Source: a virus. Taken from it: DNA of 46,028 nt. The number at the start of each line of letters is the position of its first letter. Position 1 is the first letter of the stretch. This document shows, in pieces, positions 32,392-44,895 of the stretch. The position numbers and the translations under genes are program-made. Under the pieces are notes generated by a model. That model saw only the letters and a program-made list of their open reading frames with translations, was not told where the DNA came from and searched no databases. The stretch is taken from positions 1 to 46,028 of the IMG/VR virus record IMGVR_UViG_3300027714_000030; one strand, 5' to 3'.

Positions 32392-33600
32392 TTAAAATAG
32401 TGCCGAGGCGTATATTAAGTTAGTGTCTAACGTTTGTAATCCAATTGCTGTAAGAACCCTATTTAAAGGATCGATCATAGCTTTTTCAAATTGTGTATCG
32501 TAATCTACCTTTGGTGCTATTTCATAAGGATGTTCATTTGGCATGAATGCGTAGACTTCACTAATAGTTCCTATACAATTGTATATTTTAAGTTTTTCTC
32601 CATTAGCTATCAGTTTATATTTGTTTTTATATTTTTTATTATTATTTAAAATATAATTATAGTAACCTGCTGCCTTTACGTTTGCCGGACATTTTAAACC
32701 AACTTGTAGCTCTTCTTGATCATCAAGAATGTATTTGTCTATGTTATTGGTTCTCTTATTAAATGAAATATCGTCAATATCTGCTAGTTTAAACTCTTTC
32801 TTACACTTTTTCATAAATTCAACAAGCTGTTGTAATTCTGTTGCAGTTGGTTGAATTTCAGATGTAAAAAGAATTCTAAGACATTCTACTAGTTTTTCTC
32901 TTGCAAATTTAGGAGTAGATGATTGAATAGTATCAAACCCGATAGTTTTAACCTTCTTTAATGAAGGGTGTCTATCTGTCACTTCTAGTTTATCGTCCCA
33001 TGCAATATTCTGAATATACTTTTTCTTTGACATCCAAATACCATTATATGCTAATGATTCTAATTCGAACATAAGGAAATTATCTGTATTTCTTTTATCT
33101 GCATATTTTTCCATACATTTAGTAATGTAATCCTTTAATCTAAAGGCATAAAATGCAAGAATAAACTCGTCTATTTTTAATTTCTTAGTTTCGTCAGCCC
33201 ATATAATAGATTCATATAGATCTTGAAATTGTACATAGCATGAATCAGTATCAATATAAATTACTGCAGGCTTTTCTATTTTACCCTTTACTTTAATATT
33301 GAATTGTTCATGAACTGCAGTATCTTTGTGCCAGAAATCATTAACATATTTGTTAAGAATTGTTTCTGAATAAAGAATTGCATTTTTACCTTGCTTGGTA
33401 ATTGATTCAGCTATGTCTAAATTAAAAAAGTGAAACCACTTATTACCAAATGCTCCATAAATGGAGTTAAGAGTTAACTTAACTGCTTGTTCATACGCAG
33501 TGTATTTGGCAGATAGCTGCTTGTAGTGGTCTACAAGCAGCTGAGCCTCATCATCTGTGAGTTGATCAATTGATTTTTTTTCTAACTCTTCTAATATCAT
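32392..33600 (-). CDS. 43B: DNA polymerase (gp43), C-terminal part of a split gene
   Basis: 402 aa. Carries the second half of a B-family polymerase: fingers helix with motif B KLTLNSIYGAFGN (K41 to N53), then motif C VIYIDTDSCYVQ (about 113-124) with the catalytic Asp pair, then palm/thumb. It has no exonuclease and no motif A; those are in the gene at 37587-38990. Together the two parts give 869 residues (T4 gp43: 898). The first 40 residues are a long helix, so the break lies at the fingers tip. The C-terminus YASALF may bind the clamp. ATG lies 3 nt after the gp45 stop. Confidence 0.93.
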   Translation of the reverse strand: MILEELEKKSIDQLTDDEAQLLVDHYKQLSAKYTAYEQAVKLTLNSIYGAFGNKWFHFFNLDIAESITKQGKNAILYSETILNKYVNDFWHKDTAVHEQFNIKVKGKIEKPAVIYIDTDSCYVQFQDLYESIIWADETKKLKIDEFILAFYAFRLKDYITKCMEKYADKRNTDNFLMFELESLAYNGIWMSKKKYIQNIAWDDKLEVTDRHPSLKKVKTIGFDTIQSSTPKFAREKLVECLRILFTSEIQPTATELQQLVEFMKKCKKEFKLADIDDISFNKRTNNIDKYILDDQEELQVGLKCPANVKAAGYYNYILNNNKKYKNKYKLIANGEKLKIYNCIGTISEVYAFMPNEHPYEIAPKVDYDTQFEKAMIDPLNRVLTAIGLQTLDTNLIYASALF

Positions 33601-37586: not shown

Positions 37587-38990
37587 TTATTTTTTTATTT
37601 TTTTTTCTAGTTCATATGCCTTCTCATGATACGCATATGACGTCTTTTTGTAATCTTTACGCTGTGCATATAAATCACTTAAAATCTTTTTAAGAATAGA
37701 ATCTTCCTTTTTAAAGACTACTCCGTTTTCGCAGACGATTACGTTTTCATCTTTTCTTCTTTCGTTTATTTCAGGCTGAGTAACTTGTTCTACGTATGAT
37801 TCTGGTGATATATTAAATTGTCTCATGATTGAAGGATATAGAGAAGCAAAATCAAATGCACTTACTCCAGAATAATATCCAACAATCGGTTGTTTAACAA
37901 ATGCTCCTTCAAATTTACCTTCTTTAAGAGCATCTGCTTTTCCATATTCTACGCCTATCTTTTTATTAGTTTCAGCTAATTTTCTGGCTAATAATGATTC
38001 TGTTATCGCAACAGGTGATGACGCCTTATACAGTGGCATTTTGGTAATGGTAGCTAAAGTTAAAAGAACTTCCATAGATCTTAGCTGTCTATCAATATAA
38101 TACACAAGACATGAATCAATTACGTTGTAGTAGATGTATTTGGTAAAATCATTTTCATACAAATCCTGTAATGATCCACTGTATTTAATTTTATTAATAT
38201 CTAATACTGCACCTGAAACAAAATCCAATGAATTTGATTCTTTTACTGCAACCGAACGATCATATTTGTCATATAATTGCATATAATCTAAAATACCCAT
38301 ATGAAGTGGTCTACTATCGTTTCTATCTAAAGAACCAGTGATAGCCACGTCAGTCAGGTCAATTTGTAGTCTTTTACATCTATTAACTATATACTGCCAA
38401 TCATAGTTTATGAAATTCCACCCTGTCATCATTGGGAACTTAGGCAAAAACTTATGAAGGAATGTATATAGCATATTATATTCATCATCAAATTTATGAT
38501 AAGAGAATTCCCAATCTTGATCATAATTTTTTAGATACTCATTTGTATCATCATTAATCTTTTTAACTTTATCATGTGGCATATCTTCTAAACCTAACAC
38601 TATCGCCTTACGCTCTGGTGTAATGATTGAGAATGATAATATACGTGATTTTGCCTCTTCTGGTTTTGGAAAACCATCAACTATCTCTGTCTCAATATCG
38701 ACGAAATATGTTCTTGGCATATTGAACTCATAGATCTCTTCTTTGTCTGCTTCTGGTAAAGAATCCATGAAATATAATAAACTAAACTTATTGAATGATT
38801 TAGCAAACCCTCTTTTAAGAGGTCTATCATCCCAGTTTCTATATGTTTTATCTTTATATTTGTCAGTTTCTTTGGTAACTACCCAGTTTTGAAATTGGTT
38901 TACACCATATCTTTTAAATGAAACTTTACCTTCTTTATTGTAATACGAAATTATTAATTCCTTATCTGTTTGTTCAATGTCTAATAGCAT
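37587..38990 (-). CDS. 43A: DNA polymerase (gp43), N-terminal part of a split gene
   Basis: 467 aa. Contains the N-terminal domain and the 3'-5' exonuclease: Exo I TYFVDIETEI (D98, E100), Exo II MTGWNFINYDWQYIV (188-202), Exo III YYNVIDSCLVYYID (287-300). Polymerase motif A FDFASLYPSIM follows (379-389). It ends in a charged helix (LSDLYAQRKDYKK, then AYELEKKIKK) corresponding to the first fingers helix. Motifs B and C are in the gene at 32392-33600. No intein motif is seen at the end. Its ATG overlaps the dUTPase stop (TAATG). Confidence 0.93.
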   Translation of the reverse strand: MLLDIEQTDKELIISYYNKEGKVSFKRYGVNQFQNWVVTKETDKYKDKTYRNWDDRPLKRGFAKSFNKFSLLYFMDSLPEADKEEIYEFNMPRTYFVDIETEIVDGFPKPEEAKSRILSFSIITPERKAIVLGLEDMPHDKVKKINDDTNEYLKNYDQDWEFSYHKFDDEYNMLYTFLHKFLPKFPMMTGWNFINYDWQYIVNRCKRLQIDLTDVAITGSLDRNDSRPLHMGILDYMQLYDKYDRSVAVKESNSLDFVSGAVLDINKIKYSGSLQDLYENDFTKYIYYNVIDSCLVYYIDRQLRSMEVLLTLATITKMPLYKASSPVAITESLLARKLAETNKKIGVEYGKADALKEGKFEGAFVKQPIVGYYSGVSAFDFASLYPSIMRQFNISPESYVEQVTQPEINERRKDENVIVCENGVVFKKEDSILKKILSDLYAQRKDYKKTSYAYHEKAYELEKKIKK

Positions 38991-39457
38991 TAATAATTAT
39001 TTTTCTGGCGGTTAACATTCTCTTCAGCCTTTGCAAAGTAATAATTGTAGGCTGTTTTTGCGTCTAATCCGATTGAAGATGCATAATTGATAAAGAAGTG
39101 TAGAATATCTACCCATTCCATATACAATTCTTTTTTGTCTCCTTCGGACATGTCAGACATTTTTAATGTATTATATTTTGTAAAGTCTTTCTTCCAGTAT
39201 TTCCATACTGCATTTCCACTACCATCTTTAATACCTCCAAGTGCATCTGTCATTTCATGAACCTCATCCATTAGTGAGTGCGTGTTAACATGCCAGAAAT
39301 CCATAATTTCTCGGATGGTCATATTATCAAAGTTAATACCATAAGTCTGCTCTTGCATCTTCTTTTGGTTTTCCATGATATCTGATAAGTGTGTTGTTGA
39401 TTGATCGTAAAAGTCATTTACTTCTAGATCTTTGCATTCGTTGTCTATATTTGCCAT
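38990..39457 (-). CDS. Dimeric dUTPase-like (all-alpha NTP pyrophosphatase)
   Basis: 155 aa. The pattern SLMDEVHEMTDALGG (ExxE), VWKYWKKDF, ELYMEWVDILHFFINYASSIG (ExxxD) and the ending FAKAEENVNRQKNNY is that of dimeric dUTPases (dUTPase_2/MazG superfamily; compare 'EliDilHFfis ... KN..NhrRQ..gY'). Such enzymes convert dUTP to dUMP, keeping uracil out of DNA and feeding thymidylate-type synthesis. It is coupled to the polymerase N-part and follows the PLP-enzyme gene. A link to modified-pyrimidine supply is possible but inferred. Confidence 0.8.
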   Translation of the reverse strand: MANIDNECKDLEVNDFYDQSTTHLSDIMENQKKMQEQTYGINFDNMTIREIMDFWHVNTHSLMDEVHEMTDALGGIKDGSGNAVWKYWKKDFTKYNTLKMSDMSEGDKKELYMEWVDILHFFINYASSIGLDAKTAYNYYFAKAEENVNRQKNNY

Positions 39458-39510: not shown

Positions 39511-40407
39511 TTATAGATCCATTTTTAAAACTTCTCCCCATTCTCTTTTAGAATTAGTATTTTCTTTAGTTTCTTCTGAATCCGGTAGAGGATTTCCTCC
39601 AACATTCCAGAACCATGCTCCTGGATTTCCATGTTTAACCATGAATTCCCATGCCTTTGCATCATAATTCATTGCCGATGGAAACGGTGGTGCAAACTCT
39701 GGTTTCACATCTGATGCAAATGCTTTAGGATGTGACCAAACTTTAGCTCTTCCTAATTCCCCCGTCTTGATATTTCTAGAGACTGCAACTGCATTGAATT
39801 TAGCATCTGGCCATGCAATCTGTAGTGATCTAGTAAGAACTCCTGTTGAAATTGCAGACCAAACATCTTCTGGATATCCATGTTTTTCAGCAATATTATA
39901 TGCCACTTTAATGGCAGCTGCCGTAACTAATTCATGTTTAAGTCCTAGTGGAATAAAGGTTGCATTATTATCTTCTGCCCATTGTTTTGCAATAGCATTA
40001 AGATTAGGCATTGCTGCAATTCTTCTAAATTTAGGAATAGCTCCTCTTTCAATACAAATAGCTTGGTGATCTGATATAACTTTACCAGATGGCATAAATA
40101 GAACTAGTTTTTTATTATACTTGTTGGCTAAATATGCAAGTGAAATACCTGCAAATCCAAATCTCGGCTGCACATATACTAACGTGTCTGTTGGTGCCTT
40201 TTGAACTAGAATATCTCCAAACCTACATTTAGATCCAAATCCCATCATATCATCTCTTACTACTTTAAAACCAGAATGATCTATAATAATTGGATCATCT
40301 AATGGATCTTGCCAATCCCCTGCTAAATCTAGCCATGCTTGTCTATTAGGCATCATTAGATTTAGATCTTGATTCATTGTACTTTTTGTGTGATTATCGT
40401 GTGCCAT
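39511..40407 (-). CDS. PLP-dependent enzyme of the tryptophan-synthase-beta fold
   Basis: 298 aa. The layout is fold-type II: KVVRDDMMGFGSKCRFGD with the probable PLP lysine K60, then FGFAGISLAYLANKYNKKLV and LFMPSGKVISDHQAICIERGA (the 'G..Ala...vF.P......K.......GA' half-fold of threonine synthase/ACC deaminase relatives), and AISTGVLTRSLQ as a glycine/serine phosphate-binding loop. Substrate unknown. PLP enzymes are unusual in phages but occur in the thymidine-hypermodification pathways of phages ViI and M6. The gene is packed 2 nt after the LOG-family gene, inside the proposed modification operon. Confidence 0.75.
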   Translation of the reverse strand: MAHDNHTKSTMNQDLNLMMPNRQAWLDLAGDWQDPLDDPIIIDHSGFKVVRDDMMGFGSKCRFGDILVQKAPTDTLVYVQPRFGFAGISLAYLANKYNKKLVLFMPSGKVISDHQAICIERGAIPKFRRIAAMPNLNAIAKQWAEDNNATFIPLGLKHELVTAAAIKVAYNIAEKHGYPEDVWSAISTGVLTRSLQIAWPDAKFNAVAVSRNIKTGELGRAKVWSHPKAFASDVKPEFAPPFPSAMNYDAKAWEFMVKHGNPGAWFWNVGGNPLPDSEETKENTNSKREWGEVLKMDL

Positions 40408-40409
40408 AT

Positions 40410-41078
40410 TTAAAAGTTTGTTTCTGTTGTGTCTTCTTTGTATTTGTTATGGAAATCTGTAATCTTTTCTACTGCTTCCTCTGCTGTGTCTACTACCCTG
40501 AATAAATCAAAATCTTTATCGCTGATTGCACCATGTTCCCACACAGTACTCTTCATCCAATTAACTAGACCTTGCCAATATGATTTGCCTACTAATACTA
40601 TTGGATATTTTACGTTATGTCCACATTGTGCAAGAGTAATAGCTTCAAACAATTCATCAAGCGTGCCAACTCCACCTGGAAATATTACAAAGGCTTGTGA
40701 ATATTTAAGGAACATTACTTTACGAGTAAAGAAATATCTGTTCTCTACTCCAAGATCTACATATTCGTTCATACTTGCTTCAAACGGTAATTCAATACCA
40801 ACTCCAATTGATTTTCCACCGGCATTATGAGCTCCTTTATTTGCAGCTTCCATAATTCCAGGTCCTCCGCCTGTCATGACACCAAAACCAGCTTCTACTA
40901 ATAATCTACCAATCTTCTCAGCTTCTTTATAGATTTTATTAGTACTTAATGTTCGTGCGCTTCCAAAAATAGAAACATATGAACCTTCTAATTGATTAAA
41001 GGTATCAAATCCTTTTGTAAATTCTCCTTGGATTCTTAGGATTTGCCATGCATCTTCTGCTTTATTTTTCATCTTCAT
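40410..41078 (-). CDS. LOG-family (lysine-decarboxylase-like) nucleotide phosphoribohydrolase
   Basis: About 222 aa from ATG 41078; an earlier ATG at 41132 would overlap the neighbour by 50 nt. Hallmarks are VSIFGSARTL, GFGVMTGGGPGIMEAANKGA, SIGVGIELPFE, and the signature VIFPGGVGTLDELFEAI with the catalytic Glu. Characterised LOG proteins cleave the N-glycosidic bond of (modified) nucleoside 5'-monophosphates, releasing base and ribose-5-phosphate. In this operon it could recycle or destroy a nucleotide, but the substrate is unknown. It starts 4 nt after the 351-aa gene. Confidence 0.85.
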   Translation of the reverse strand: MKMKNKAEDAWQILRIQGEFTKGFDTFNQLEGSYVSIFGSARTLSTNKIYKEAEKIGRLLVEAGFGVMTGGGPGIMEAANKGAHNAGGKSIGVGIELPFEASMNEYVDLGVENRYFFTRKVMFLKYSQAFVIFPGGVGTLDELFEAITLAQCGHNVKYPIVLVGKSYWQGLVNWMKSTVWEHGAISDKDFDLFRVVDTAEEAVEKITDFHNKYKEDTTETNF

Positions 41079-41082
41079 TGTT

Positions 41083-42138
41083 TTACTCGTTTGGATAATC
41101 TCTACCCCATAAATACTTAGTTGTTTGTCCATTTACTAAAACACTTTCGGTTGGATGTTTAGCTAAATTAAAATCTCCATCAAATATCCAAGTGTATGGA
41201 ATTCTTTTTGTTGGTGATTTAATATTGTGGCTAATTGCGATGTGTTTGTAGAAAAAACACGTTTTATCCTCTACGTTTAAATACTTTTGACTTTCCATTG
41301 GATTATCTGGATGATTTACCAATACATCCATTTGTCTAATCCATTCTTCCGCATGTTTGTTTTCTGAGATAAATTGTCCGTCAGTGTCTATTGAATATTT
41401 TACTTTTCCATTAAGATTAACACCACCAAATATCTGTTGCATACCATCAAAATGACCGGTACCACCGAATAATACGGACTCGGGATCTACAAGATCAGGT
41501 CTACTCATAGCAACATATCTTGCAGTGTTTTTACATGGGTATAATGGTGATCTAAAGTTTTGATGTTCTTTAAAGTAGGCTTCTAATAATTTGGCAAACT
41601 CCATCATTGTATATGGTCTATCTAAATCTTTAAGAATATGAGCCATGTCCTTGGCTGCTTTCCTAGGTCCTTCAATTAACCAGTCTTTAACCTTTGTACC
41701 TTTAGGATAATAGATTTGAAATAAATCATTTCTAGCATGTCTATTTTCTACAAAGTGTTCTCTTGTTTTCTCTTCACCTATATTAATTAATTTTGTAATA
41801 GTTCCCCAGTGTTCATTTGAAAATGAGAATACAATTGTATAATATAGTAATTTCTCTAGATCTGTCTCATGTTGCATCATATAACAATACGGATGCTCAT
41901 GCCAATGTAATCTGTGTGAGAATATTTGATAGTCTTCTAAAAGAAGTTTATCTTGTCTTTTGTCGAATCCTCTGCAAAATTCAAAAAACTTTGCTAGTCT
42001 TTCTTCTTCTGTCCAATCCTTCATCCAACTCTCTGTTGGTTTTTTCTTCTTAAATACAATATCAGTGCATGTACCTTCGTATGTAATATTTTCATATTCA
42101 TGTGACATGTCGTCTTCGAATGTAAATAGTTTATTCAT
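41083..42138 (-). CDS. Candidate base-hypermodification enzyme (thymine pyrophosphorylase-like), 351 aa
   Basis: Helical protein. The segment FRSPLYPCKNTARYVAMSRP, then a VDPESV stretch and FGGTGHFDGMQQIFGG (224-239), recalls the C-terminal 'G.tGp..Ga..lfgG' motif of alpha-glutamyl/putrescinyl-thymine pyrophosphorylases, a DNA-glycosylase-like (HhH) family of phage DNA hypermodification. A similar arrangement is seen in the adjacent 403-aa protein, so the two may be diverged relatives. It overlaps that gene by 8 nt. The assignment rests on remembered motif patterns. An unrelated HhH-type DNA-binding protein is the main alternative. Confidence 0.4.
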   Translation of the reverse strand: MNKLFTFEDDMSHEYENITYEGTCTDIVFKKKKPTESWMKDWTEEERLAKFFEFCRGFDKRQDKLLLEDYQIFSHRLHWHEHPYCYMMQHETDLEKLLYYTIVFSFSNEHWGTITKLINIGEEKTREHFVENRHARNDLFQIYYPKGTKVKDWLIEGPRKAAKDMAHILKDLDRPYTMMEFAKLLEAYFKEHQNFRSPLYPCKNTARYVAMSRPDLVDPESVLFGGTGHFDGMQQIFGGVNLNGKVKYSIDTDGQFISENKHAEEWIRQMDVLVNHPDNPMESQKYLNVEDKTCFFYKHIAISHNIKSPTKRIPYTWIFDGDFNLAKHPTESVLVNGQTTKYLWGRDYPNE

Positions 42139-43342
42139 TATCAGCTATCATTTTTTTATATTCCTCTACTGAAATTCCAGCACCTTGTAATACTTTGTCA
42201 TCAGATGGAAATTGTGTCATATCATTAAATGTTTTTAGTAAACCCAAATCTAACATAGCTTTTTGTCTACCGTACGGATGATCAGTGATTGAAGAAGAAT
42301 TCCACAAAGTGTCCATGTTTATGTGTGAATAATCTTTTCCAGGTCTTAAGTAGTTTTCTATCCATCTGATAAAATCACAAGCAACATCTTCGGCATTATA
42401 TGGAAGTGATCCAGTATCTTCATAAATCTTAGTCATAACTGCATCTAAAAACTCTTCACTCTTTTTACCTTTCTTTTCTACAGGATCTGCAAGATAACCA
42501 ATACATTCTACCGCGTTAGTTCCATAATAGAACATCGTTTCTCTATTCATAAATTCAGGGAACCAATCACATACATCTGCTATTACTGCAGCATATTGGA
42601 ACCTATAAACTCTTAATCCATTATCTGAATTCCATTTAAACATCCATTCACCAAGTTCACGTAAATCTTTTTTACCGCCGCCTCTTAAGAAATTAGCCAT
42701 TTCTCTTGCAAGTCTTGGTGCGTATTCACATAAGAAATAATCTCCACCTCTTTTATAGACATATTCTGGTTCAGTAAAACTTGCCATTCCTATAAAACTG
42801 TCCTCGTCCACGTTTGGTTTTGGAGGTTTTGGAAATGCAGGAAACTGGTAACCGACTGAAGTATAAAACGGTGTTGGATGGTGTTTAACCTTTTCGCAGA
42901 TATCTTCAATTGTATTACATTCATGTAAATCAAATATAATAGTGTTGTGATATCCCGAAGGTTTAGTGGCATAATTAATAGCAGACCCACATACTCTATG
43001 TAGAATAAAAAGATAAAGCCATTCTTCTAATCCAAAGATCTCTCTTTTACCAGTCCAATTTTTAGCAATCTCTTCTCTTTGGGGGTAAATTTTACCAGCT
43101 AGCATGTGTTCCCAATATGGATGATCAGACGACCAACCATAAAAGCAATCATTTATAATTTGACTAAATCCAGCATACTTACGCTCAACTACATCATACA
43201 ATTGAATATGTTCCATCAATGGATCTTGCATTTCACTTTCATCATGAGGTGTCATACCAAGATTACTGAGTTCTTGTTGTTTTTTTGCTAACTCAAAGTA
43301 TCTTAGGAATTCTTCGTAATATTGTGTAGTTTTTATTTGCAT
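42131..43342 (-). CDS. Candidate base-hypermodification enzyme (thymine pyrophosphorylase-like), 403 aa
   Basis: Helical protein with YLFILHRVCGSAINY (about 110-124), PSGYHNTIIFDL, and a C-terminal FQYAAVIADVCDWFPEFM followed by MFYYGTNAVECIGYL (270-284). The last part parallels the conserved 'yE...Dl......a.D..tw.n.GpGa.rGl..l' region I associate with clade-2 alpha-glutamyl/putrescinyl-thymine pyrophosphorylases, and also the 351-aa neighbour. It is coupled to that neighbour (8-nt overlap). No kinase or hydroxymethylase gene is visible in the window. The amino-acid:DNA transferase family is an alternative. Confidence 0.4.
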   Translation of the reverse strand: MQIKTTQYYEEFLRYFELAKKQQELSNLGMTPHDESEMQDPLMEHIQLYDVVERKYAGFSQIINDCFYGWSSDHPYWEHMLAGKIYPQREEIAKNWTGKREIFGLEEWLYLFILHRVCGSAINYATKPSGYHNTIIFDLHECNTIEDICEKVKHHPTPFYTSVGYQFPAFPKPPKPNVDEDSFIGMASFTEPEYVYKRGGDYFLCEYAPRLAREMANFLRGGGKKDLRELGEWMFKWNSDNGLRVYRFQYAAVIADVCDWFPEFMNRETMFYYGTNAVECIGYLADPVEKKGKKSEEFLDAVMTKIYEDTGSLPYNAEDVACDFIRWIENYLRPGKDYSHINMDTLWNSSSITDHPYGRQKAMLDLGLLKTFNDMTQFPSDDKVLQGAGISVEEYKKMIADNE

Positions 43343-43346
43343 GTGA

Positions 43347-43505
43347 TTATATAATTTTCCAGGTAAATGGATCTCTATTTCTTTGATATTGTTCCATTGT
43401 CCATTCTATATCTCCGGTGGAAAACTCTATGCTATATGGTTTAACAGCACAAAATTTTTGTTGTGTAATTGGTGTAATTTCTATTTTATAATTTTTTATT
43501 TTCAT
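43347..43505 (-). CDS. Small protein of unknown function (52 aa)
   Basis: ATG at 43503-43505 directly follows the stop of the SGNH-like gene (43507-43509), and the frame runs to TAA at 43347-43349, just before the ATG of the 403-aa gene. The product starts MKIKNYKIEITPITQQKFCA and ends QYQRNRDPFTWKII. The exact fit between neighbours and the absence of other coding sequence in the 164-nt space support it. Confidence 0.65.
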   Translation of the reverse strand: MKIKNYKIEITPITQQKFCAVKPYSIEFSTGDIEWTMEQYQRNRDPFTWKII

Positions 43506-43506
43506 T

Positions 43507-44580
43507 TTAGAATAACGCGAGCGTTTGTTTAATTAATTTTTTATTAGGTTCGTTTTTTAATAAGTCCCATCTGTAAAATTCACGAGCGATGTGAACTGAT
43601 TTTGGTTTTTCCATTACATCAAATGTTAATTCATTAAGTGAATTGAAATAAACATCAGAGTGTTTGTATACTTGCCACTCGTTTCTTTCACACATGTCAT
43701 CTATACCTGAATTAATCTCTTTTACTAACGCTGATCTTTCTGACCAAGTGCCTGTAAATGGTGTTCCTTTATAATAACCTGTTTTAGGCAATGGTCTACT
43801 TTCGTTTTCAATAGGCAATACATGAACTACTTCAATTTGTTCAATGCCGTTTTCTTGTAATTTAATAAGTTCTGCTTCGTAGTTTATTAGCAAAGTTTTA
43901 ACAGCAGCTGATGGATTAGATTGTCTCATCAAATGGTGTCTAACATCAATATTACCCATGTAAATTCTAAGAGATTTTATCCACGGATATATGTATGTTT
44001 CTAATCCTCTTTTAAGTGAACCATGCGCTGTTAGGCCATCATGTCTTTGTGTCATGAAACCCGGAGTATACTGACTAAATGAATGGCTATCACCAAAACA
44101 GAGTTTATCTGTTTTTTCAATTGAATCAATTCTTGGAATATCTGTTGCACATATTTTTTTAATTTTATCAATTTCGGTTTCTAATGTTTTAAATAAACCT
44201 GTACCTGTATGTAGTCTCTGTTCAACAAGAGCACCTATACATGGCATATTATGGTGTAAACTAAACATTTTAGTAGAACTAAAGATTCTTTGAATCTGGT
44301 GATACAAATCATCATTAGCGCCACCAAATATATTGAATGTGCCTTTAAATTCCATTCCGTGTTCTAATAAAATAACATCGAATTCATTCCAATCAGTAGA
44401 TATATCTGTGATTACTTCTACATTTTCATAACCTGCGTTTACACATTGATTTGCCAAATGAAATGCCCAGCCTGATTTATGTGAACTGACTTTAGGACTT
44501 AGTTTACCAACTAAAGCTGCAATTCCAACTCGAGACGACTTTTCGGAAATGTAATCTGATAAGTATTTTAATTCTGTCAT
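43507..44580 (-). CDS. SGNH-hydrolase-like protein heading the proposed modification operon
   Basis: 357 aa. KLCFGDSHSFSQYTPG (GDSH at 163-166) and RIYMGNIDVRHHLMRQ (209-216) match the first and second blocks of a phage/bacterial SGNH subfamily ('GDSHs ... GeiDcR'). A later VLPIENESRPLP resembles the 'pp.e.e.R' loop, and VHIAREFYRW could supply the final His. The first 150 residues form a separate N-domain (TDWNEFDVILLEHGMEFKG). SGNH enzymes are esterases or acyltransferases; the substrate here is unknown. The C-terminus IKQTLALF resembles a clamp-binding peptide, hinting that it acts near DNA. Confidence 0.45.
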   Translation of the reverse strand: MTELKYLSDYISEKSSRVGIAALVGKLSPKVSSHKSGWAFHLANQCVNAGYENVEVITDISTDWNEFDVILLEHGMEFKGTFNIFGGANDDLYHQIQRIFSSTKMFSLHHNMPCIGALVEQRLHTGTGLFKTLETEIDKIKKICATDIPRIDSIEKTDKLCFGDSHSFSQYTPGFMTQRHDGLTAHGSLKRGLETYIYPWIKSLRIYMGNIDVRHHLMRQSNPSAAVKTLLINYEAELIKLQENGIEQIEVVHVLPIENESRPLPKTGYYKGTPFTGTWSERSALVKEINSGIDDMCERNEWQVYKHSDVYFNSLNELTFDVMEKPKSVHIAREFYRWDLLKNEPNKKLIKQTLALF

Positions 44581-44583
44581 ATT

Positions 44584-44895
44584 TTATAGATTTAAAGGTT
44601 CTTCGGATTCACCATGACCATGTTTTTCAACATAATTGTCAAGCGCTCCTAAGTAAGCAACTGCATCGAGTAGATTGTCTTGCTTATAATTATATGAATG
44701 TCGACTCAATTTAAGTGCTACAAGTGCAGCGTACATGTCTGAGCCATTTAATTGTTTACCTGTCATACCATTGAAAACTTGAGCAGCTCTTCGCATGCCC
44801 TCTTCAAATGGACCGTATTGACGTGATTTCTCTTCTGAGCGATTATTTACTATTTCGTTAGCTTCAGATAAAATGTTTGATTTCTTTTTAGACAT
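44584..44895 (-). CDS. DUF6378-like phage protein
   Basis: 103 aa. The core RQYGPFEEGMRRAAQVFNGM, then DMYAALVALKLSRHSYNYKQ and DNLLDAVAYLGALDNY, matches the 'YG....nf...a..w..l......d.a..mv.lKl.R.......Dn..D..gY' pattern of DUF6378, a common small phage family of unknown role. It ends 3 nt before the ATG of the SGNH-like gene, so the two are probably cotranscribed. Confidence 0.65.
   Translation of the reverse strand: MSKKKSNILSEANEIVNNRSEEKSRQYGPFEEGMRRAAQVFNGMTGKQLNGSDMYAALVALKLSRHSYNYKQDNLLDAVAYLGALDNYVEKHGHGESEEPLNL

Follow-up and report, generated by a model that had tools for sequence, protein, structure and literature searches.

The stretch of DNA analysed here, called the window, is IMG/VR virus record IMGVR_UViG_3300027714_000030, positions 1 to 46,028 (46,028 bases), and the part of interest, positions 39511-44580, holds six tightly packed genes on the minus strand followed by a gene for a nucleotide-pool enzyme, with gaps and overlaps that are mostly of a few bases (Table 1). 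A preliminary description made from the sequence had pointed to this arrangement, and a check of the open reading frames (ORFs) reproduced the frames themselves, their strand, order and spacing. It had also seen in these genes an operon for DNA base modification, which is supported by the modelled structure of a protein of 403 amino acids (aa), by a pyridoxal phosphate (PLP) enzyme of the type found in phage M6, and by the co-occurrence of the genes in other genomes. The reading favoured here, with reasonable if incomplete confidence, is of a DNA-cytosine hypermodification module, the product being an amino-acid-type hypermodification of 5-hydroxymethylcytosine (5-hmC).

Table 1. Genes of the candidate operon and its flanks (AF2, AlphaFold model; loci are the 71 non-redundant loci defined in the text)
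Gene product	Position	Strand	Basis and occurrence
DUF6378 protein directly upstream of the SGNH gene	44584..44895	-	Pfam PF19905 E 4e-12; conserved neighbour in the window's clade
SGNH-like two-part protein (357 aa)	43507..44580	-	AF2 model, SGNH structural matches; 62/71 loci
52-aa protein	43347..43505	-	Conserved in one clade, where it separates the SGNH gene from the 403-aa gene; 43 loci
403-aa protein of amino acid:DNA transferase (ADDT) fold, predicted base:DNA transferase (core enzyme)	42131..43342	-	AF2 model, PDB and BFVD matches
351-aa paralogue of the 403-aa protein, predicted second transferase or helper subunit	41083..42138	-	Profile and motif; 55/71 loci
LOG-family nucleoside-monophosphate phosphoribohydrolase, accessory	40410..41078 (listed ORF start 41132)	-	Pfam, TIGR00730, PDB, motif; 7/71 loci
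Fold-type II PLP enzyme, phage M6 gp52 family, predicted amino-acid tailoring	39511..40407	-	phrog_7093, hhalign; 60/71 loci
T4 gp56-type dCTPase/dUTPase (all-alpha NTP pyrophosphohydrolase)	38990..39457	-	Profile match to T4 gp56; 18/71 loci

The AF2 model of the 403-aa protein (mean predicted local distance difference test, pLDDT, 82.3; predicted template modelling score, pTM, 0.83) has as its best PDB match 8z2n, the 5-phosphomethyl-dU glycinyltransferase of phage PaMx11 (Z 9.9, 207 residues, root-mean-square deviation 3.9 Å), and the next matches are helix-hairpin-helix (HhH) DNA glycosylases of the AGOG type (Z 8.1). In BFVD its closest named match is an ADDT-domain protein which, at E 2e-38 and 56% identity, is a close relative, and after it come, with weak E-values, the 5-hydroxymethyldeoxyuridine (5-hmdU) kinase helical proteins of PhiW-14 and SP10. 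Helical models reach middling Z scores by chance, so that the structural support for membership of the superfamily is good, not absolute; nevertheless, as judged from the model, the case for placing the 403-aa protein in the ADDT/5-hmdU-kinase-helical superfamily is strong, and its predicted activity is to place an amino acid on a modified base of DNA. Searched against 7,826 sequences, real and shuffled, the profile of the 351-aa family has relatives of the 403-aa protein at the top of its ranking, the best at E 0.00026, which makes it probable that the two are paralogues. The C-terminal motif noticed by inspection holds up, [ED]...C.[FWY] being present in 26/26 sequences of the 403-aa family, 17/19 of the 351-aa family, 21/21 ADDT sequences and 11/17 of HMUDK_hel, the helical family just mentioned. 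Both proteins had been likened to the aGPT-pyrophosphorylases, and what stands of that is the superfamily, through the structure of the one and the paralogy of the other, but not a link by sequence profile to ADDT or HMUDK_hel.

The PLP protein matches phrog_7093 (E 4e-38), the family to which gp52 of phage M6 also belongs; hhalign of the window protein with M6 gp52 gives 95%, and the candidate Schiff-base lysine of the family is conserved. What had been described as a fold-type II PLP enzyme is confirmed as one of the M6 gp52 family. In M6 the gp52 gene adjoins the ADDT gene, gp51, and the genes for the 5-hmdU kinase HMUDK (gp54) and for HMUDK_hel (gp55) are nearby, and in the work on M6 and ViI the PLP enzymes act on an amino acid that the base already carries. 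In Erythrobacter phages PLP-domain relatives form part of genes with a DNA methyltransferase annotation (L144:2326-4764), and in a Microcystis phage they have ParB/sulfiredoxin genes as neighbours (L145:9995-10705).

How far does the company kept by these genes extend? Relatives of the two helical proteins are frequent in IMG/VR, with 98 and 196 stretches confirmed in the first scans and at least 530 in the third, and homologues of the 403-aa protein are present in at least 98 and at least 530 of these. Fetched loci differing by more than 8% in the 403-aa protein (a 92% identity limit) number 71, and neighbours were counted within 6.5 kb of its gene, the counts being lower bounds as many loci end early. 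Its core neighbours are the SGNH gene (62), the PLP gene (60) and the 351-aa paralogue (55), further ones a gp42-type hydroxymethylase (31), dCMP deaminase (23), gp56-type dCTPase (18) and PRA-PH (18), and rarer ones a UDG-superfamily gene (15), LOG (7) and an HhH-GPD glycosylase (5). The strand is shared with the 403-aa gene in every instance for SGNH (62/62), PLP (60/60), the paralogue (55/55) and the hydroxymethylase (31/31). Since the four core genes, found in several different orders among these loci, have kept company through repeated reshuffling, their joint function is well supported. The 52-aa gene is represented by 23 distinct sequences. A search of named phage genomes gave no relative of the 403-aa protein, GTDB genomes only four matches, all in metagenome-assembled bins and uninformative about hosts, and no report of this gene set was found in the literature; the phages that carry it are widespread, uncultured and for the most part aquatic.

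With AGOG-type enzymes next in the structural ranking, and with UDG-superfamily, HhH-GPD and LOG genes recurring beside the 403-aa gene, could the glycosylase-like proteins be real base-excision enzymes, a repair or counter-defence set which removes wrong or unmodified bases from a 5-hmC genome, the PLP and SGNH proteins then serving another pathway? That the glycinyltransferase is nonetheless the top structural match, that the best named viral matches are ADDT and 5-hmdU-kinase proteins, and that an M6-type PLP gene accompanies the 403-aa gene in 60 of the 71 loci make this very unlikely. As to the neighbouring glycosylase genes themselves, those of the UDG superfamily and the MBD4/EndoIII-like HhH-GPD ones often lie directly before the 403-aa gene (e.g., L268:5586-6008; L141:6960-7724), and they possibly serve repair of deaminated 5-hmC.

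Which pyrimidine is modified is indicated by genes for nucleotide metabolism. The ThyA-like gene that lies beside the operon in some clades is T4 gp42-like, most of the proteins compared sharing 50-61% of their residues with T4 gp42, and at the specificity position, 177, all 31 nearby gp42-like hydroxymethylases have Asp (for L078 as read from the alignment), where the hydroxymethylases of M6 (gp58) and SPO1 (gp29) have Asn. Replacement of Asn by Asp at that position switches the substrate from dUMP to dCMP, and on cytosine-modified contigs the residue there is mostly Asp (MetaGPA, PMC8670742). Thymidylate synthase, dCMP deaminase and PRA-PH domains occur together on those contigs (PMC8670742), and the dCMP deaminase and PRA-PH neighbours counted above, in 23/71 and 18/71 loci, are of the same Pfams. 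The gene following the operon, previously termed dUTPase-like, is indeed for a nucleotide-pool enzyme, specifically of the T4 gp56 dCTPase family (family profile against T4 gp56, E 8e-25, with phrog_173/18650 matches). As T4 gp56 also cuts dUTP, this match is support, not proof, for cytosine. Given an Asp-type hydroxymethylase in 31/31 and a gp56-like pool enzyme, cytosine rather than thymine is, from these sequence features, the probable target base.

The preliminary description had inferred a new modified pyrimidine with thymidine hypermodification as the known parallel, and a reading with thymine as the base is probably wrong. Hypermodification on 5-hmdU as in M6 and ViI would draw its hydroxymethyl-dUMP from the host, from an unseen enzyme, or from dCMP hydroxymethylation combined with a deaminase, and the dCMP deaminase gene does adjoin that for the hydroxymethylase in many loci. 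To our knowledge, moreover, the characterised members of the transferase superfamily all act on 5-hmdU derivatives. However, none of the 31 nearby hydroxymethylases is of the M6/SPO1 Asn type, a gp56-like dCTPase is present, and no HMUDK family kinase (PF18748) was found in 24 operon-bearing records, one complete genome included, by a search which found the M6 control and missed PhiW-14; modification of thymine is consequently judged improbable. HMUDK_hel was not found in the operon genomes, and a single-sequence search with the T4 gp1 kinase, which had no positive control, gave no match. That part of the pathway would lie elsewhere in the genome, as had been anticipated, is right for the hydroxymethylase: the complete 256-kb relative (G002; matching ends) encodes one of the Asp type, together with the operon and an ordinary thymidylate synthase, so that its absence from the window is explained by fragmentation. 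For a kinase the PF18748 search, of limited power, gave nothing. In another relative, G001, a cysteine-synthase-like gene lies beside thyA.

The 357-aa protein, rightly described earlier as SGNH-like, has in its AF2 model (pLDDT 87.7) a C-terminal SGNH/GDSL-type acyl-ester domain at about residues 154-346, with GDSH at 163-166, GNID at 209-212 and H330; G163-D-S-H166, G209, I211-D212 and H330 are invariant in the family. In structural comparison this domain reaches Z 13-14, over some 165 residues, against sialate O-acetylesterase and GDSL esterases, and 12.6 against the O-acetyltransferase PatB; Pfam Lipase_GDSL is sub-threshold in relatives. A resemblance of the N-terminal alpha/beta domain (about residues 1-150) to T4 beta-glucosyltransferase (BGT) is suggestive only: Pfam T4-Gluco-transf comes up sub-threshold in three relatives (E 0.0023-0.01) and BGT ranks 2 of 1,000 and 7 of 1,000 against shuffles; by profile the comparison is not significant, and the structural matches listed for the model, a list filled by SGNH folds, do not include BGT. 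Most relatives have Asp at the residue that seemingly corresponds to BGT Asp100, where the window protein has Asn instead (HHNMP). The cultured Aeromonas phages 31 and Aes012 have SGNH relatives and a gp42 orthologue, without T4 BGT, and in phage 31 a single protein joins the SGNH relative to an HMUDK_hel-like region (E 0.0036, below the Pfam cut-off).

How, then, might 5-hmC be activated? The near-constant presence of the SGNH gene (62/71 loci), and its position beside an HMUDK_hel-like domain in phage 31, which in M6 is the place of the kinase, there encoded beside HMUDK_hel, mean that the SGNH protein may be the activator. In this sub-version of the cytosine reading it would O-acylate 5-hmC in DNA, with acyl as the leaving group instead of phosphate and a kinase unneeded; that the fold includes an O-acyltransferase, PatB, and that the N-terminal domain is weakly BGT-like are in keeping with it. 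Most of the SGNH matches are esterases, however, and phosphate is a better leaving group than acyl; also, a kinase might have escaped detection, as PF18748 fails on PhiW-14, which is known to be a modifier. The proposal is doubtful, and its fullest form, in which an SGNH protein with an hmC-reading domain acylates 5-hmC, glycosylase-fold transferases put an amino acid in place of the acyl with no kinase involved, and PLP tailoring follows, throughout a large group of environmental phages, we would hold to be unlikely.

Families, folds, paralogy, conserved co-occurrence and the Asp-type hydroxymethylase are established in this analysis. The pathway proposed for the preferred reading, modification of 5-hmC, is one in which we infer the target base, the order of the steps and all of the chemistry. 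The gp56-like dCTPase would remove dCTP, and 5-hydroxymethyl-dCMP would come from a gp42-like dCMP hydroxymethylase whose gene is elsewhere in the genome or, in other clades, beside the operon, leading to 5-hmC DNA. The exocyclic hydroxyl of 5-hmC would be activated, and the glycosylase-fold transferase pair of 403 and 351 aa would flip the base and swap the activated oxygen for an amino acid or similar nucleophile, a step modelled on the action of PaMx11 PUGT on 5-phosphomethyl-dU. The fold-type II PLP enzyme would then tailor the attached amino acid, e.g., by decarboxylation, and the SGNH protein would add or remove an acyl ester on the base, either as late tailoring or, more speculatively, as the activating acyltransferase that replaces the 5-hmdU kinase.

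Several considerations weigh against this scheme. The 403- and 351-aa proteins have no significant sequence match in Pfam, PHROGs or NCBIfam, and none of 26 and 19 members of their respective families is matched by PF18724 or PF18723; sequence profiles alone fail to link the 403-aa family to ADDT or HMUDK_hel. The profiles of those two known families also fail to find each other, and, as profiles do not join the families, the superfamily claim for the 403-aa protein is carried by structure. The placing of the 351-aa protein is by profile and motif. The likeness of the SGNH N-terminus to BGT is weak; no HMUDK kinase was matched, though the power of the PF18748 test is limited; and a dCMP deaminase could in principle convert hmdCMP to hmdUMP. 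Finally, neither a hydroxymethylase nor a kinase gene was found in the 46-kb window, and several long relatives have no hydroxymethylase. These look like fragments; the gene next to the hydroxymethylase in two genomes is likewise missing from those long relatives, as would be expected.

The remaining enzyme of the set, the LOG protein, is soundly assigned to its family (Pfam Lysine_decarbox E 5e-36; TIGR00730 E 5e-48, above cutoff; PDB LOG 5zi9 E 1e-69), and has the motif PGGVGTLDE, of the LOG PGGxGTxxE type. The preliminary description had it as part of the operon, but as a core enzyme it is rejected, being near the 403-aa gene in just seven loci; in related genomes it sits instead near hydroxymethylase and chaperone genes. 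It would be an accessory nucleotide enzyme, acting on nucleotides, not DNA. Its listed start at 41132, which gives it 50 bases in common with the 351-aa gene, is probably too far upstream: relatives start at the counterparts of Met19/Met21, i.e., about 41078/41072, and with such a start the overlap disappears. In two large relatives (L255, L256; G002, G001) the hydroxymethylase and LOG genes have ClpA-like and ClpP-like genes at their flanks. In one clade a UDP-galactopyranose mutase gene and a GT2-like gene come after the PLP gene (L121:11830-14110; L147:3761-7035), and Aes012 has a UDP-galactopyranose mutase gene near its SGNH relative, hinting at an added sugar. Other genes of the window are for a 5'-3' exonuclease, a clamp loader, a DnaB-like helicase, a T4 gp15-like tail protein and a family B DNA polymerase, the last split (37587-38990 and 32392-33600), with nrdB and nrdA between its halves.

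As the evidence stands, the module belongs with the known pyrimidine hypermodifications, as a variant, and does not form a category of its own. The thymidine hypermodification of M6/PaMx11 comprises ADDT/PUGT, the PLP protein gp52, a radical SAM enzyme, HMUDK and HMUDK_hel, and a dUMP hydroxymethylase. Shared with it are a glycosylase-fold base:DNA transferase clustered with an M6 gp52-family PLP enzyme and partnership with a pyrimidine hydroxymethylase, whereas here the hydroxymethylase of operon relatives is cytosine-type (Asp), not uracil-type (Asn), no HMUDK kinase was found, two paralogous transferases and an SGNH protein are present, and no radical SAM gene was noticed beside the operon. 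The T4 5-hmC/BGT system likewise has a gp42-type dCMP hydroxymethylase, a gp56-type dCTPase and a dCMP deaminase, and there is the weak BGT likeness of the SGNH N-terminus; but ADDT-fold, PLP and SGNH enzymes are in place of glucosyltransferases, and no BGT gene was recognised beside the operon. The 5-hmC carbamoyltransferase module found by MetaGPA, also in environmental phages, shares the Asp177 dCMP hydroxymethylase, dCMP deaminase and PRA-PH, though its transferase is a TobZ-like carbamoyltransferase and not ADDT-fold (PMC8670742). An amino acid on phage DNA cytosine, the feature in common with the product proposed here, has been described in Synechococcus phage S-B43, where the CmoA/CmoX/CmoY system makes 5-carboxymethylcytosine-glycine; it uses a Cx-SAM-dependent cytosine carboxymethyltransferase and an ATP-dependent amide ligase, neither family being in the operon (PMC12783734).

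The points of interest are the pairing of such a transferase with cytosine and the possible replacement of a kinase by an SGNH protein. Proteins of the latter kind, listed as hypothetical in cultured Aeromonas T4-like phages, now have a testable role, and the enzymes named could become tools for writing or reading 5-hmC. The superfamily has so far been tied to thymine-type bases, and its steady pairing with a T4-type dCMP hydroxymethylase across many environmental phages points to an undescribed family of hypermodified cytosines, which are likely to block restriction, CRISPR and hmC-directed defences.

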